Below, in pieces: positions 28,517-32,200 of a stretch of DNA of 32,200 nucleotides. The DNA is from Gammaproteobacteria bacterium (GTDB taxonomy: Bacteria; Pseudomonadota; Gammaproteobacteria; Steroidobacterales; GCA-2729495). The stretch is taken from positions 1 through 32,200 of the forward strand of contig JAHDYM010000025.1 of the NCBI GenBank assembly GCA_023383705.1. Direction: 5' to 3'. The notes under the pieces are model-generated. The model saw nothing but the letters and a program-made list of their open reading frames with translations. It did not search any database and had not been told where the DNA came from. Both the position numbers and the translations under genes were made by a program. Every line of letters starts with the position of its first letter. The first letter of the stretch is position 1.

Positions 28517-28957
28517 GTGGCAGAAAAAGGCATCGACAAGAAGAAGGTACTCGCAACGCTCGACCGGATCCTCGAGGCCGAGCTGGCCGGCGTGGTCCGC
28601 TATACCCACTACTCATTCATGATCTTCGGCTACAGCCGCATTCCGATCATCTCGTGGTTTGAATCGCAGGCCAACGAGTCCCTGGCACATGCGCGGCAGG
28701 CTGGCGAAATGATCACCCACCTGGGCGGCCAGCCTTCGCTGGCGATCGGCAAGCTGCTGGACGATCACCAGACCGACATGAGCGAGATCCTGCGCGGTTG
28801 CCTCGAGCATGAGCGCAGTGCACAGGCCCTGTACCGGAAGCTGCTCGCGCAGACCCAAGGCCGCTCGATCATGATCGAGGAATATGCGCGCACGCAGATC
28901 GCCACCGAAGAGCTGCATTCGGGCGAGATCGAGAAGATGCTGCGCCGGCCTGGCTGA
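28517..28957 (+). CDS. Ferritin-like diiron protein (bacterioferritin-type)
   Basis: A 146-residue four-helix ferritin-like protein. Likely iron ligands are E22 in AELAGVVRYTHY, E54 and H58 in NESLAHA, the glutamate of CLEHERSAQALY, and the EELHSGE group in the last helix. This pattern fits bacterioferritin/Dps-like oxidases that store iron or detoxify it. GTG 28517 is chosen with GGGAG 8 nt upstream; GTG 28508 is possible, and the frame is open to 28307 inside the divergent gene region. The stop shares one base with the next ATG (TGATG), so the two genes are coupled. No haem-binding methionine can be assigned by eye. Confidence 0.82.
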   Translation: MAEKGIDKKKVLATLDRILEAELAGVVRYTHYSFMIFGYSRIPIISWFESQANESLAHARQAGEMITHLGGQPSLAIGKLLDDHQTDMSEILRGCLEHERSAQALYRKLLAQTQGRSIMIEEYARTQIATEELHSGEIEKMLRRPG

Positions 28958-29742
28958 TGTACCAGCACCTCGCCGATGCAGTCCTGGTGCTGCATTTCGG
29001 CGTGGTCAGCTTCGTGGTGGGTGGCCTGCTGGCAATCGTTGCCGGCAACCTCGCACAGATCGAGTGGGTAAATCGTCCCGCGTTTCGCTGGGCGCACCTT
29101 TGCGCCATCGGTTTCGTGGTGCTCCAGTCCTGGCTGGGCGCAATCTGTCCGCTCACGGTGCTTGAGAACCGGCTGCGGGCGCAGGCCGGCGGGACCGCCT
29201 ACGAGACGAGCTTCATCGAGCACTGGGTCGCAAGGCTCATGTACTACGAAGCGCCGGCATGGGTTTTCGCCTCGCTGTACACGCTCTTCGGCCTGGCGGT
29301 GGTGGCTGCCTGGCGGTACTGGCCGCCAGCGCCCTGGGGCGGCGAGGGGAGGCGGCGCTTGCGCTTCCTGAAGTTCCTCTGGGCCGCACCCTGTTCTGTC
29401 GTCGGGATCGTGCTGGCCGTCGTGCCGCTGGCATTCGGCGGCAAGGCGAGGTGGTCAGCCGGCGCGCTGGAAGTGACATGGCGCGAAACGCTGGCCAGCT
29501 GCGGCCAGTTGGCTGGCCGGTTGCCCATTCGCGGCGTTGTGTTCGGCCATGTCATCCTCGCCGTCACGGATGACGACCTGCGAGCCATCGGCCCGCATGA
29601 GCGGGTGCATGTTGCGCAATACGAACGCTGGGGGCCGCTGTTCTTCCTGGTGTATGCCGCATCCAGCCTGTGGCAGCTCATCAACGGGCGTAACCCGTAC
29701 TGGCACAATCATTTCGAAGTGCAGGCGCGCGAGCGCAGGTGA
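28957..29742 (+). CDS. DUF2784 fused to a domain with an HExxH motif
   Basis: A 261-residue two-part membrane protein. Residues 1 to about 125 match DUF2784: hydrophobic helices, then the marks GAICPLTVLENRLRAQAG and SFIEHWVARLMYY. After a basic linker (about 129-139) comes a second unit with one or two hydrophobic stretches, GHVILAVTDDDL, and H214-E-R-V-H218 in HERVHVAQYERWGPLFF, ending NPYWHNHFE. I recall this second unit as a separate family of unknown function in other bacteria. HExxH plus the late E254 could be a zinc-protease-like site, but that is inference. The gene is coupled to the ferritin-like gene by a 1-nt overlap. No frameshift is needed to join the parts. Confidence 0.75.
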   Translation: MYQHLADAVLVLHFGVVSFVVGGLLAIVAGNLAQIEWVNRPAFRWAHLCAIGFVVLQSWLGAICPLTVLENRLRAQAGGTAYETSFIEHWVARLMYYEAPAWVFASLYTLFGLAVVAAWRYWPPAPWGGEGRRRLRFLKFLWAAPCSVVGIVLAVVPLAFGGKARWSAGALEVTWRETLASCGQLAGRLPIRGVVFGHVILAVTDDDLRAIGPHERVHVAQYERWGPLFFLVYAASSLWQLINGRNPYWHNHFEVQARERR

Positions 29743-29794: not shown

Positions 29795-30112
29795 TCAGAA
29801 CTCGAGCACCAGAAAGTCGAGTGCCGCGATTATCTCCGTCCGCTTCGCAGCAAGATCTGCGACCTGCGGACCAAGAACCCGTCTGGGTACGCCTGCAAGC
29901 TGAGGCGTCAGCATTACGAACTGCTTGCCGTCAACGTCGAGTATCGGCATCAGGTTGCTGACAACCTTGCCCTTCATTGATGAGGCGGGGCATAGCGGTA
30001 CAACGACCCGGGTTCCCAATTCTTCGATCAGGTTGGACTGCACATCCAGAAGGTATGGAATGGCCGTCCTGGTAGCAGGACTGGCGTTCTGGTGCACTGA
30101 AAACTGACCCAT
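29795..30112 (-). CDS. ccdB: CcdB-family gyrase toxin
   Basis: A 105-residue homologue of the F-plasmid CcdB toxin, which traps DNA gyrase on DNA. Shared features are the N-terminal QFSVHQN strand, PYLLDVQSNLIE, RVVVPL, the central LMPILDVDGKQFVMLTPQLAGVP and the ADLAAKRTEIIAALDFL tail. E. coli CcdB needs its last three residues for poisoning (WGI); this protein ends LEF, so potency cannot be judged. The start shares one base with the ccdA stop (TGATG). The pair is less GC-rich than the backbone and lies at the edge of the accessory region. Confidence 0.9.
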   Translation of the reverse strand: MGQFSVHQNASPATRTAIPYLLDVQSNLIEELGTRVVVPLCPASSMKGKVVSNLMPILDVDGKQFVMLTPQLAGVPRRVLGPQVADLAAKRTEIIAALDFLVLEF

Positions 30113-30357
30113 CAGAAACTCCGAAGCTCGTCACTGAAGACGCCGTGCTTCTCGACATGGTCGTTATACGCAGCCATTGCCGCCTTGTTTTCGGCGAGCC
30201 AGGCAGCCTGTTGGCGCTCCCTCAAAGCGGCGCCGAGGGCTTGCTCCAATGTGGCGGAAAGGTTGATTTCCAGTTCCTTGGCCTTGTTCAGGAGATCGGA
30301 GTTGATGCTCAGGTTCGCAGGCCGCTTGGGGGCCTGGGGGTTATAGACCGGCTGCAT
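30112..30357 (-). CDS. ccdA: CcdA-family antitoxin
   Basis: An 81-residue antitoxin. A ribbon-helix-helix DNA-binding part (PANLSINSDLLNKAKELEINLSATLEQAL) is followed by the toxin-binding tail, which resembles CcdA: AAWLAENKAAMAAYNDHVEKHGVFSDELRSF compared with the FADENRDW-type end of F CcdA. ATG 30357 is chosen because AGAGGAAG lies about 6 nt upstream; the frame is open to 30465, and ATG 30381 is an alternative without such a site. It precedes ccdB with a 1-nt overlap, as expected for an autoregulated module. The palindrome at 30393-30412 lies just upstream. Confidence 0.9.
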   Translation of the reverse strand: MQPVYNPQAPKRPANLSINSDLLNKAKELEINLSATLEQALGAALRERQQAAWLAENKAAMAAYNDHVEKHGVFSDELRSF

Positions 30358-30392
30358 CCGGGCTTCCTCTGGGGGTGACATGCGTGTAGTGT

Positions 30393-30412
30393 ATACGCAT
30401 ACCGATGCGTAT
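30393..30412. promoter_or_regulatory. Palindromic operator candidate upstream of ccdAB
   Basis: ATACGCAT at 30393-30400 and ATGCGTAT at 30405-30412 form a perfect 8-bp inverted repeat with a 4-nt spacer, 36 nt before the ccdA start. GTATAC at 30391-30396 overlaps it, and a TATACA on the minus strand could serve as a -10 box. CcdA proteins bind such palindromes through their ribbon-helix-helix domain, so this is the likely autoregulatory site. Confidence 0.6.
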
Positions 30413-30420
30413 GGATACCC

Positions 30421-30466
30421 CATGTCGCTAAACTCTCCTGCGCCCGCCGGGCGCTTGAACGACATG
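30421..30466. repeat. Nested inverted repeat
   Basis: CATGTCG at 30421-30427 and CGACATG at 30460-30466 form a perfect 7-bp outer repeat. Inside it GCGCCC at 30440-30445 and GGGCGC at 30449-30454 form a tight hairpin. There is no T-run. It lies upstream of the ccdA operator; a second regulatory site or a structural relic is possible. Confidence 0.45.
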
Positions 30467-30655
30467 AATCCGTCGCGGTACCAGTATCCTCAGGGGGCCA
30501 TATTTATCTCCAGCAGACAAACCGACGATTTCGGGGTGATACTTCGCTCCGTTTGAATCCCACAACTAATAGTTCCCCCGACGCCGGCAATGTCAACGCG
30601 AGTTTCCAGTGAGTGCCACGAGATAGTGAAGATGAGCGACGTCGAAGGACGTGGT

Positions 30656-30719
30656 ATTTCTGAGACCAAAACGGATCGATCAAGCACGCTTGGTTCGAGT
30701 CCGTTTTGGTCTCAGAAAT
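30656..30719. repeat. 64-nt near-perfect palindrome
   Basis: The 20-nt arms at 30656-30675 and 30700-30719 are exact reverse complements (left arm ATTTCTGAGACCAAAACGGA). Pairing continues inward through TCGA (30676-30679 with 30695-30698) and CAAGC/GCTTG (30681-30685 with 30688-30692), broken only by small bulges. A transcript or single strand would fold into one long hairpin. It carries no gene and no T-run. Its position at the left edge of the integron array suggests a small insertion-like element or a folded recombination relic, but the identity is unknown. Confidence 0.85.
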
Positions 30720-30806
30720 GCTCCGTTCCTATCGAGCGCGGCCTCCTGGTTTTGCACGCCTCCCTTCCCTCGAATGGATCCGGGGAGCCACTGCCGTGGC
30801 AGCGCA

Positions 30807-30894
30807 GGAGAACCAATCACCAGAGCGGTCGGGTCGATCTGCCTGAGCGTGGGCCGCGCTCGTGGCGACCCGCCGCTCGGTTCAATAGTTAGGC
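30807..30894 (+). repeat. attC recombination site 1
   Basis: The core GTTAGGC at 30888-30894 fits GTTRRRY. L boxes GAGCGG (30823-30828) and CCGCTC (30873-30878) pair, and CGGGTCG (30830-30836) pairs with CGACCCG (30866-30872). T30829 is left as an extrahelical base. The inverse core is GGAGAAC at 30807-30813, with only AAC matching the consensus. Spacers between core and L box are 9 nt on both sides. An inner hairpin GAGCG/CGCTC completes the fold. Confidence 0.8.
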
Positions 30895-30898
30895 GCCG

Positions 30899-31333
30899 AT
30901 GAAGAGATTGCTGATTTCAGCTCTCGCGACAGTGGGCGCGCTTGTGGTGCTTCTTGTGGCTGGGGTTGTCGTCTTCGTTTGGGTATTCGACGGCGGTAGT
31001 GACTACGAAGTCAAAAGTTCAGTGGCATCACCGGATGGTGGGCACACTGCTACGCTGTATCAGGGAATGGGTGGTGGCGCTGCGGGCTGGTGCTCCCAGG
31101 TTATCGCTGTCAATACACCAAATGCCCCGTTTTCTCTAGAGCATGAGAAGGACTCTGGGGACTTTCAGGTGTTCCGAGCGAACTGCAGCGCAGACATTCA
31201 GGTTCGTTGGCTTTCAAATTCACTTCTTCACATCGAGTTCTCTGAATCGGAGCCGGGCGATGGCTTGTCTGTTTACATGCAGCAAAGTGACGATAGCGGC
31301 CAAGTTAAGGTGGAATACTCGTTTGGCGCCTAA
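30899..31333 (+). CDS. Cassette gene 1: membrane-anchored protein of unknown function
   Basis: 144 residues. A strong N-terminal hydrophobic helix (about residues 4-30, LLISALATVGALVVLLVAGVVVFVWVF) is followed by a soluble domain with SSVASPDGGHTATLYQGMGGGAAGWCSQVIAVN and two cysteines in WCSQ and ANCSAD. The SPDG-x-ATLY and GGAAGWC pattern resembles a family of small exported proteins of unknown function that I have seen annotated as DUF5412-like; this is recollection, not a search. The ATG lies 4 nt after the attC core with no Shine-Dalgarno site, and the TAA stop is embedded in the next attC (GCCTAAC). Orientation is the usual one for cassettes. Confidence 0.8.
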   Translation: MKRLLISALATVGALVVLLVAGVVVFVWVFDGGSDYEVKSSVASPDGGHTATLYQGMGGGAAGWCSQVIAVNTPNAPFSLEHEKDSGDFQVFRANCSADIQVRWLSNSLLHIEFSESEPGDGLSVYMQQSDDSGQVKVEYSFGA

Positions 31334-31429
31334 CAACGCGCTGCACGCGGACGCGCCTGGTCTGTCACGCCCTTTGCAGGGCAAAGGCCGCGCCAGCCTG
31401 CGGCGCGCCGGTAAGCGCGAGCGTTAGAT
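31328..31429 (+). repeat. attC recombination site 2
   Basis: The inverse core GCCTAAC (31328-31334) and core GTTAGAT (31423-31429) both fit the consensus. Paired segments are CGCGCT (31337-31342) with AGCGCG (31414-31419), CGG (31348-31350) with CCG (31408-31410), and CGCGCC (31352-31357) with GGCGCG (31402-31407). A31351 remains as an extrahelical base. The terminal structure contains a further CCTTTGC/GCAAAGG hairpin at 31371-31387. This is the clearest of the three sites. Confidence 0.93.
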
Positions 31430-31432
31430 CTC

Positions 31433-31975
31433 ATGGTCGTGCGAATCCTTATCATTGCATCTGCACTGGCCTCACCCGTCGTATTTGCGACCGATTTCGG
31501 TGTTGCCGACCTGGAATCTGGTTGCGACTCCATTTCGGAGCGTGAGATCGCAAGGGGCTCGTTACCGGTTCCGTTGCAGGCTGGTGATGCCGATGGGCGA
31601 CTTGCATTCAGAGGCCGTGCGTTTGATCGCGACGTCACATTGGTCTATATGTGCCGGGAAGGAAGCTTGGTAGCCGGCAACTATCTCTTGCCAATAGAGT
31701 CACTGGCTGACGCTTCGAAAAGCTTCACGTCGGTGTATGGAGAGCTCGTATCGATATACGGGGAGCCGCTCTTCAACAGTGCTCCAGAAATCCTGCCGGC
31801 ACTTCGCAGGGATCCGCAGTCAGTTCCGGCCGATAAGGTTAGGGTCGTAGCGCAGTGGCGTATCGGCGACATCTCTGTATCTCAGTCATTGATGCAAAAT
31901 CTTCCAGCAGAACATGGTGGTTGGCGCGTGTTCATTGTGGTTGGCCCGAAGCGCCCTTGGCCTCGCTTTAACTAG
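31433..31975 (+). CDS. Cassette gene 2: exported protein of unknown function
   Basis: 180 residues beginning with a signal peptide (VRILIIASALASPVVFA, likely cleaved after residue 19). The mature part has two cysteines, one in ESGCDSIS and one in VYMCREG, that may pair in the periplasm. I do not recognise the family. The ATG is 3 nt after the attC core and has no Shine-Dalgarno site. The TAG stop overlaps the beginning of attC 3. Codon use is clearly less GC-biased than in the core genes, in line with cassette origin. Confidence 0.8.
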   Translation: MVVRILIIASALASPVVFATDFGVADLESGCDSISEREIARGSLPVPLQAGDADGRLAFRGRAFDRDVTLVYMCREGSLVAGNYLLPIESLADASKSFTSVYGELVSIYGEPLFNSAPEILPALRRDPQSVPADKVRVVAQWRIGDISVSQSLMQNLPAEHGGWRVFIVVGPKRPWPRFN

Positions 31976-32052
31976 CGATAGGAGCGGACCGTGCGTGATC
32001 TGATGTGCTTGTTGCGCAGCGTTGCAACGGCCGCTCAATCGAGACGTTAGGA
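31966..32052 (+). repeat. attC recombination site 3 (core slightly degenerate)
   Basis: The inverse core CTTTAAC (31966-31972) and core GTTAGGA (32046-32052) each differ from the consensus at one end base. L boxes GAGCGG (31982-31987) and CCGCTC (32031-32036) pair, CCG (31989-31991) pairs with CGG (32028-32030), and A31988 is extrahelical. CGAT/ATCG pair in the spacer. Both core-to-L spacers are 9 nt, the same geometry and L-box sequence as in attC 1. Confidence 0.75.
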
Positions 32053-32058
32053 GGCTCG

Positions 32059-32146
32059 GTGCGCCGCTTCTACCGATGGCCGTCGGCGATACTCGCAAGC
32101 GCAGCCTTTGGCGTGGCGGTCGCCGCTGATCCAAGCGGCAGCCTCT
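32059..32146 (+). CDS. Start of a third cassette: short signal-peptide-like reading frame
   Basis: GTG 32059, six nt after the attC 3 core, opens a 29-residue frame (MRRFYRWPSAILASAAFGVA, then VAADPSGSL) that reads like a signal peptide with a cleavage site near VAA, and then stops at TGA. The same frame continues open after the stop to the window end. It may be a very short peptide, a gene broken by a nonsense change, or chance. No Shine-Dalgarno site is evident. Confidence 0.35.
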
Positions 32147-32200
32147 GAGTTTCCCAAGGTTTCCCGGACACCCGCCTAAGCAAGACCGAACTGCTTCTCG

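Follow-up and report, generated by a model that had tools for sequence, protein, structure and literature searches.

Clusters of attC sites that lack an integron integrase are referred to as CALINs, and degraded integrons as such are well known. The CALIN was defined for IntegronFinder (PMC9024848). In Xanthomonas the integrase gene (intI) has often been deleted or truncated and the cassettes have been retained (PMC12444791), and Vibrio cholerae carrying an inverted array undergoes rapid integrase inactivation (PMC11023631).

The window, that is, the whole stretch of DNA analyzed here (32,200 nucleotides), represents an entire contig (C50) of a draft genome (G000; 2.93 Mb, 162 contigs, 96% complete). 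At the right-hand end of the contig lies a cassette array, which we consider, with a probability of about 0.93, to be a sedentary chromosomal integron minus its integrase. The array resembles a CALIN (PMC9024848) in having at least two attC sites in one orientation, short cassettes and no intI nearby, but differs from a plain CALIN by its surviving attI leader and vestigial intI, which make its origin visible. With the Xanthomonas integrons (PMC12444791) it shares the chromosomal location, the inactivated intI and the retention of lineage-specific cassettes. Unlike them, it lies, as far as can be seen, not beside ilvD but between ccdAB and an HlyD/ABC exporter operon, and its genome has two such arrays, with different attI sites. 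Overall, the locus fits the degraded-integron picture drawn from Xanthomonas and V. cholerae.

The family itself provides another comparison. We surveyed 40 genomes of the same bacterial family for IntI using a curated cut-off, and 20 of them had an IntI above it. Complete integrons of the family (on G002:C61 and G004:C115, in G027, G029 and others) have the same attC design as the array in the window, and that of G002 also has the same attI leader; unlike this array, they keep an intI above the family cut-off. The features of the locus are listed below, with attC scores from a covariance model (R1) described further on.

28957-29742, plus strand: DUF2784 gene (Pfam PF10861), flanking the array on the left, with an ortholog beside ccdAB in G005
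29795-30112, minus strand: ccdB toxin gene (Pfam CcdB, E 5e-35) next to the array, one half of a type II toxin-antitoxin pair
30112-30465, minus strand: ccdA antitoxin frame, of which only residues 47-117 match Pfam CcdA (E 2e-29); the intI stub forms its upstream end (30418-30465)
30418-30465, minus strand: intI remnant, about 16 codons, residues MSFKRPAGAGEFSDMG
30419-30575, plus strand: attI leader, with the crossover GTT starting at 30572
30573-30888, plus strand: first cassette, between the attI and attC1 crossover points, without a convincing gene
30807-30894, plus strand: attC1, 21.3 bits
30889-31423, plus strand: second cassette, between the attC1 and attC2 crossover points
30899-31333, plus strand: ORF1, 144 amino acids, second cassette
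31328-31429, plus strand: attC2, 31.0 bits
31424-32046, plus strand: third cassette, between the attC2 and attC3 crossover points
31433-31975, plus strand: ORF2, 180 amino acids, third cassette
31966-32052, plus strand: attC3, 33.0 bits
32059-32145, plus strand: 5' part of the fourth-cassette gene, interrupted by an insertion sequence, with the remainder on contig C134
32146-32200, no strand assigned: insertion-sequence end, 55 bases running to the contig end; target duplication CTC at 32143-32145

As regards the parts of a complete integron, an attI leader ending in GTT is present and an intI coding for the IntI-specific domain is missing. The leader is 85% identical to a stretch of G004:C373 and 78% identical to the one directly upstream of the intact intI on G002:C61. 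In all three genomes the likeness stops at TAATAGTT, the expected attI crossover point. On the minus strand, MSFKRPAGAGEFSDMG matches the IntI N-terminus of G002 and that of a stub on G004:C373. The reading frame of this remnant continues into ccdA, which thus shares a frame with the intI start codons. The rest of the gene is missing at about 30410-30418, and tblastn recovered nothing of it on the array contigs apart from the approximately 16 start codons. The search for intI around the array, which the first-pass annotation had proposed, returned none on C50, on C134 or elsewhere in the genome; the best matches to TIGR02249 were Xer-type recombinases far below the cut-off. Since the draft is 96% complete, an intI could still lie elsewhere. 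Moreover, the stub is short, and the case for it leans on the likeness of the adjoining DNA. A consensus scan of 30360-31000 for the cassette promoter Pc gave no sigma-70-like match.

The same annotation had described the locus as a CALIN with no integrase in view. It is indeed an attC cluster without an integrase, but the attI leader and the intI stub make it a decayed integron rather than a free-standing cluster. The bounds given at that time were too narrow, leaving out the leader, the stub, the first cassette and the continuation of the array beyond the insertion sequence.

In the course of events that we favor, IntI would once have inserted cassettes at attI (GTT at 30572), and these insertions would have built an array of at least six cassettes. 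The loss of intI, which would postdate cassette capture, is most likely due to a deletion, one that would have taken the gene from about codon 17 on and brought the stub up against the ccdAB operon on its upstream side. The array would have kept its attI site, its attC sites and its cassettes but no recombinase of its own. The array is presumably frozen now; its sites are predicted to be recombinable in trans, in principle, by another integrase.

A palindrome, GTATACGCATACCGATGCGTATGGATAC, is located at 30391-30417, upstream of ccdA and directly at the intI deletion junction; it is perhaps the ccdAB operator. In G004, which also has an intact intI on C115, contig C373 (L101, 4206-4475) codes for an 89-residue IntI N-terminal stub with a cassette and an attI of the same type beside it; decay there is at an intermediate stage.

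The genome contains a second array, in which C125 (reversed) joins C25 through a 55-base overlap, suggesting an assembly word size of about 55 bases. This array has three attC sites and no intI. Its leader (C125:1261-1111) shows 85% identity to DNA upstream of the intI of G004:C115, so this array has another attI type than the one in the window. Beyond the leader, C125 has a ParDE-like pair, identified by inspection. The second array spans L078 (G000:C125) 18-1261 and L079 (G000:C25) 1-1060; its first cassette codes for a RelE-like toxin and an HTH protein, and its last gene, which is without attC, precedes fumarate hydratase. Elsewhere in the genus, G001:C92 (L098, 1954-4653) has several attC sites at a contig end in a genome without IntI above the cut-off.

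Two integrons with different attI types in one genome, each lacking intI and each with its junction close to a toxin-antitoxin operon (ccdAB on C50, the ParDE-like pair on C125), are the basis for another reading of how intI was lost. Instead of decaying passively, intI may have given way to toxin-antitoxin operons that take over the position and the promoter of the integrase and lock the array. A takeover of position and promoter is suggested by the intI start codons being in frame with ccdA. We regard this reading as unlikely.

The array itself does not finish with the window. The terminal 55 bases of C50 begin with TGAGTTTCCC and the first 55 bases of C134 end with GGGAAACTCA; these 55-mers are inverted repeats, identical at 22 of the 25 terminal bases, and each lies beside CTC. 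A further copy of the insertion-sequence end is found at the end of C74. The simplest reading is that the assembler halted at both contigs because it met an insertion sequence that occurs in more than one copy and had duplicated 3 bp of its target; the element has no match among plasmids. The fourth-cassette gene is in phase across the insertion, and the R' box of attC3 matches the R'' box of attC4 on C134 at 7/7 bases. Following the fourth cassette, C134 carries a BrnT/BrnA toxin-antitoxin cassette, a 5'-nucleotidase-like cassette and the last attC (1543-1608). The HlyD/ABC exporter operon and a methyltransferase gene come next and are followed by three genes that by inspection are SDR, nitrilase and TldD. 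In G005, where the array is absent, DUF2784, ccdB and ccdA are directly followed by SDR, nitrilase and TldD genes, and the likeness to G005 stops at C50 30409 and resumes at C134 7301. Evidence for the link between C50 and C134 comes from the insertion-sequence ends, the duplicated target, the reading phase and synteny rather than from reads. As the first-pass annotation had proposed, the array is chromosomal and adjoins core genes, and its junction, as had been anticipated, is a variable point between related genomes: the array is missing in G005, and ORF1 and ORF2 are missing from the 7 other genomes of the genus.

As a separate observation, the distal end abuts the same HlyD/ABC exporter operon in G000:C134 (L068, 1806-6755) and in the complete genome G027:C1 (L107, 609677-614566), with the arrays at opposite ends of the operon in the two genomes. 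The shared neighbor may be a trace of an old common integron locus.

One rival reading is that an intact integron was simply cut by contig ends, with its intI present beside the array but unassembled. Arrays in these drafts do finish at contig ends, and CALINs are overstated in draft genomes (PMC9024848). However, the attI side of this array is inside the contig, where the remaining 16 or so intI codons are followed without a break by ccdAB and 30 kb of other genes, and the distal end on C134 is also without intI. A cut of this kind is therefore very unlikely. We attach an equally small probability to C50 being chimeric, that is, to a false join between the ccdAB region and an integron's attI end, with intI located elsewhere. 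The draft is of the metagenome type and the junction at 30410-30418 is abrupt, yet a false join usually requires the two sequences to share a repeat about as long as the assembly word, and 30395-30600 matches the genome at a single place. Moreover, the other side of this G005 locus is present on C134, as one true insertion site predicts, and no IntI was found anywhere in the genome. Even less probable is the dispersal of cassettes in trans from another integron to a secondary site, in which case the cluster would never have owned an intI. Some Xanthomonas CALINs do lie far from the integron locus (PMC12444791), but at the proximal end of the present array there are an attI leader and intI start codons.

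Sites for the covariance model were collected from the stretches around the IntI genes of the family. They share a common design: an R'' box, 9 nt, a 6-bp L box, one extra base, a variable center, L', 9 nt and R'. Because the variable center made a whole-site MAFFT alignment unusable, model R1 was built from the two conserved arms, using 21 attC sites from relatives and excluding those of the window. All three sites claimed by the first-pass annotation are present on the plus strand with high scores, the next-best match in the window reaching 9.3 bits. Genome-wide, the model picks up only nine sites, each close to a contig end: C50 and C134 have three apiece, C125 two and C25 one. The array counts three attC sites in the window plus three on C134.

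The R'' and R' boxes, the paired L boxes and the extrahelical base could be assigned in attC1 and attC3 from the boxes themselves and in attC2 from the model alignment. Both attC1 (R'' GGAGAAC, 9 nt, L'' GAGCGG, extra T, then L' CCGCTC, 9 nt, R' GTTAGGC) and attC3 (R'' CTTTAAC, 9 nt, GAGCGG, extra A, then CCGCTC, 9 nt, GTTAGGA) conform exactly to the family design. They had been said to share the L box and identical 9-nt spacers; the L box and the spacer length are indeed common to both, but the spacer sequences differ. In attC2 the boxes are GCCTAAC (R'') and GTTAGAT (R'), and the extra base is at position 17 after R''. A strict descriptor matches attC1 and attC3 in the window, both within its last 1.4 kb; in 10 Mb of random sequence from a first-order Markov model with matching dinucleotide composition, the same descriptor gave five matches, or about 0.016 expected per window. 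Compared with shuffled sequences, attC1 (z -3.2) and attC2 (z -4.8) fold well as single strands. The fold of attC3 is not significant (z -0.3), and therefore the case for this site rests on the covariance model.

In a circular cassette, R'' and R' form one site, and after insertion R'' should match the R' at the 5' end of its own cassette, not the one that comes after it. Within the nine cassettes of the two arrays, R'' and R' agree at 59 of 63 bases; permuted pairs reach 44.8 (p 2e-5), and pairing R'' with the R' of its own attC gives 42. The same rule accounts for the unusual R'' of attC1, which fits RYYYAAC at just 4/7 positions: the 5' end of the first cassette is GTTCCCC, to which GGAGAAC is complementary at 6/7. 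The view that the sites are chance hairpins or terminators between small genes could appeal to the fold of attC3, no better than that of shuffles, and to Rfam giving zero matches in the window, but against the model and descriptor statistics, the cassette-wise R''/R' matching and the attI leader its probability is negligible.

The two short genes fit exactly between attC sites, as had been noticed, with ORF1 and ORF2 stopping inside or beside the next R''. As to their products, no function was indicated by Pfam, NCBIfam, PADLOC, plasmids, viral contigs, solved structures or folds, in agreement with the earlier view that the cassette functions are not yet described: neither protein matches a family in the libraries searched. 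ORF1 has a probable N-terminal membrane anchor (from its N-terminus) and, in a moderate-confidence structure model, a beta-rich domain; its fold matches were weak propeller fragments and were set aside. ORF2 starts with a signal-peptide-like N-terminus, and its structure model was too poor for a fold search. Judging by these N-termini, and for ORF1 also by the model, both proteins look exported or membrane-anchored; our best guess, of low confidence, is that they are envelope proteins. Both are rare in the order, and no attC sites flank their relatives in another family. The first cassette contains a near-perfect palindrome (30656-30720) with arms of about 24 bases and a fold z of -10; neither the rest of the genome nor 396 genomes of the order yielded another copy. 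A terminator label for this palindrome was dropped, as the T run is missing.

The locus is a fresh example of a degraded integron with a clear trace of its origin; otherwise it is ordinary, and it is not a new type of system. It offers a clear case, from an uncultured lineage, of how an integrase-less array arises. Within one genus there is a decay series, from an intact intI (G002) through an 89-residue stub (G004:C373) to about 16 codons (C50), and this series lends support to the idea of many CALINs as dead integrons. Searching next to a CALIN for an attI leader can prove such an origin.
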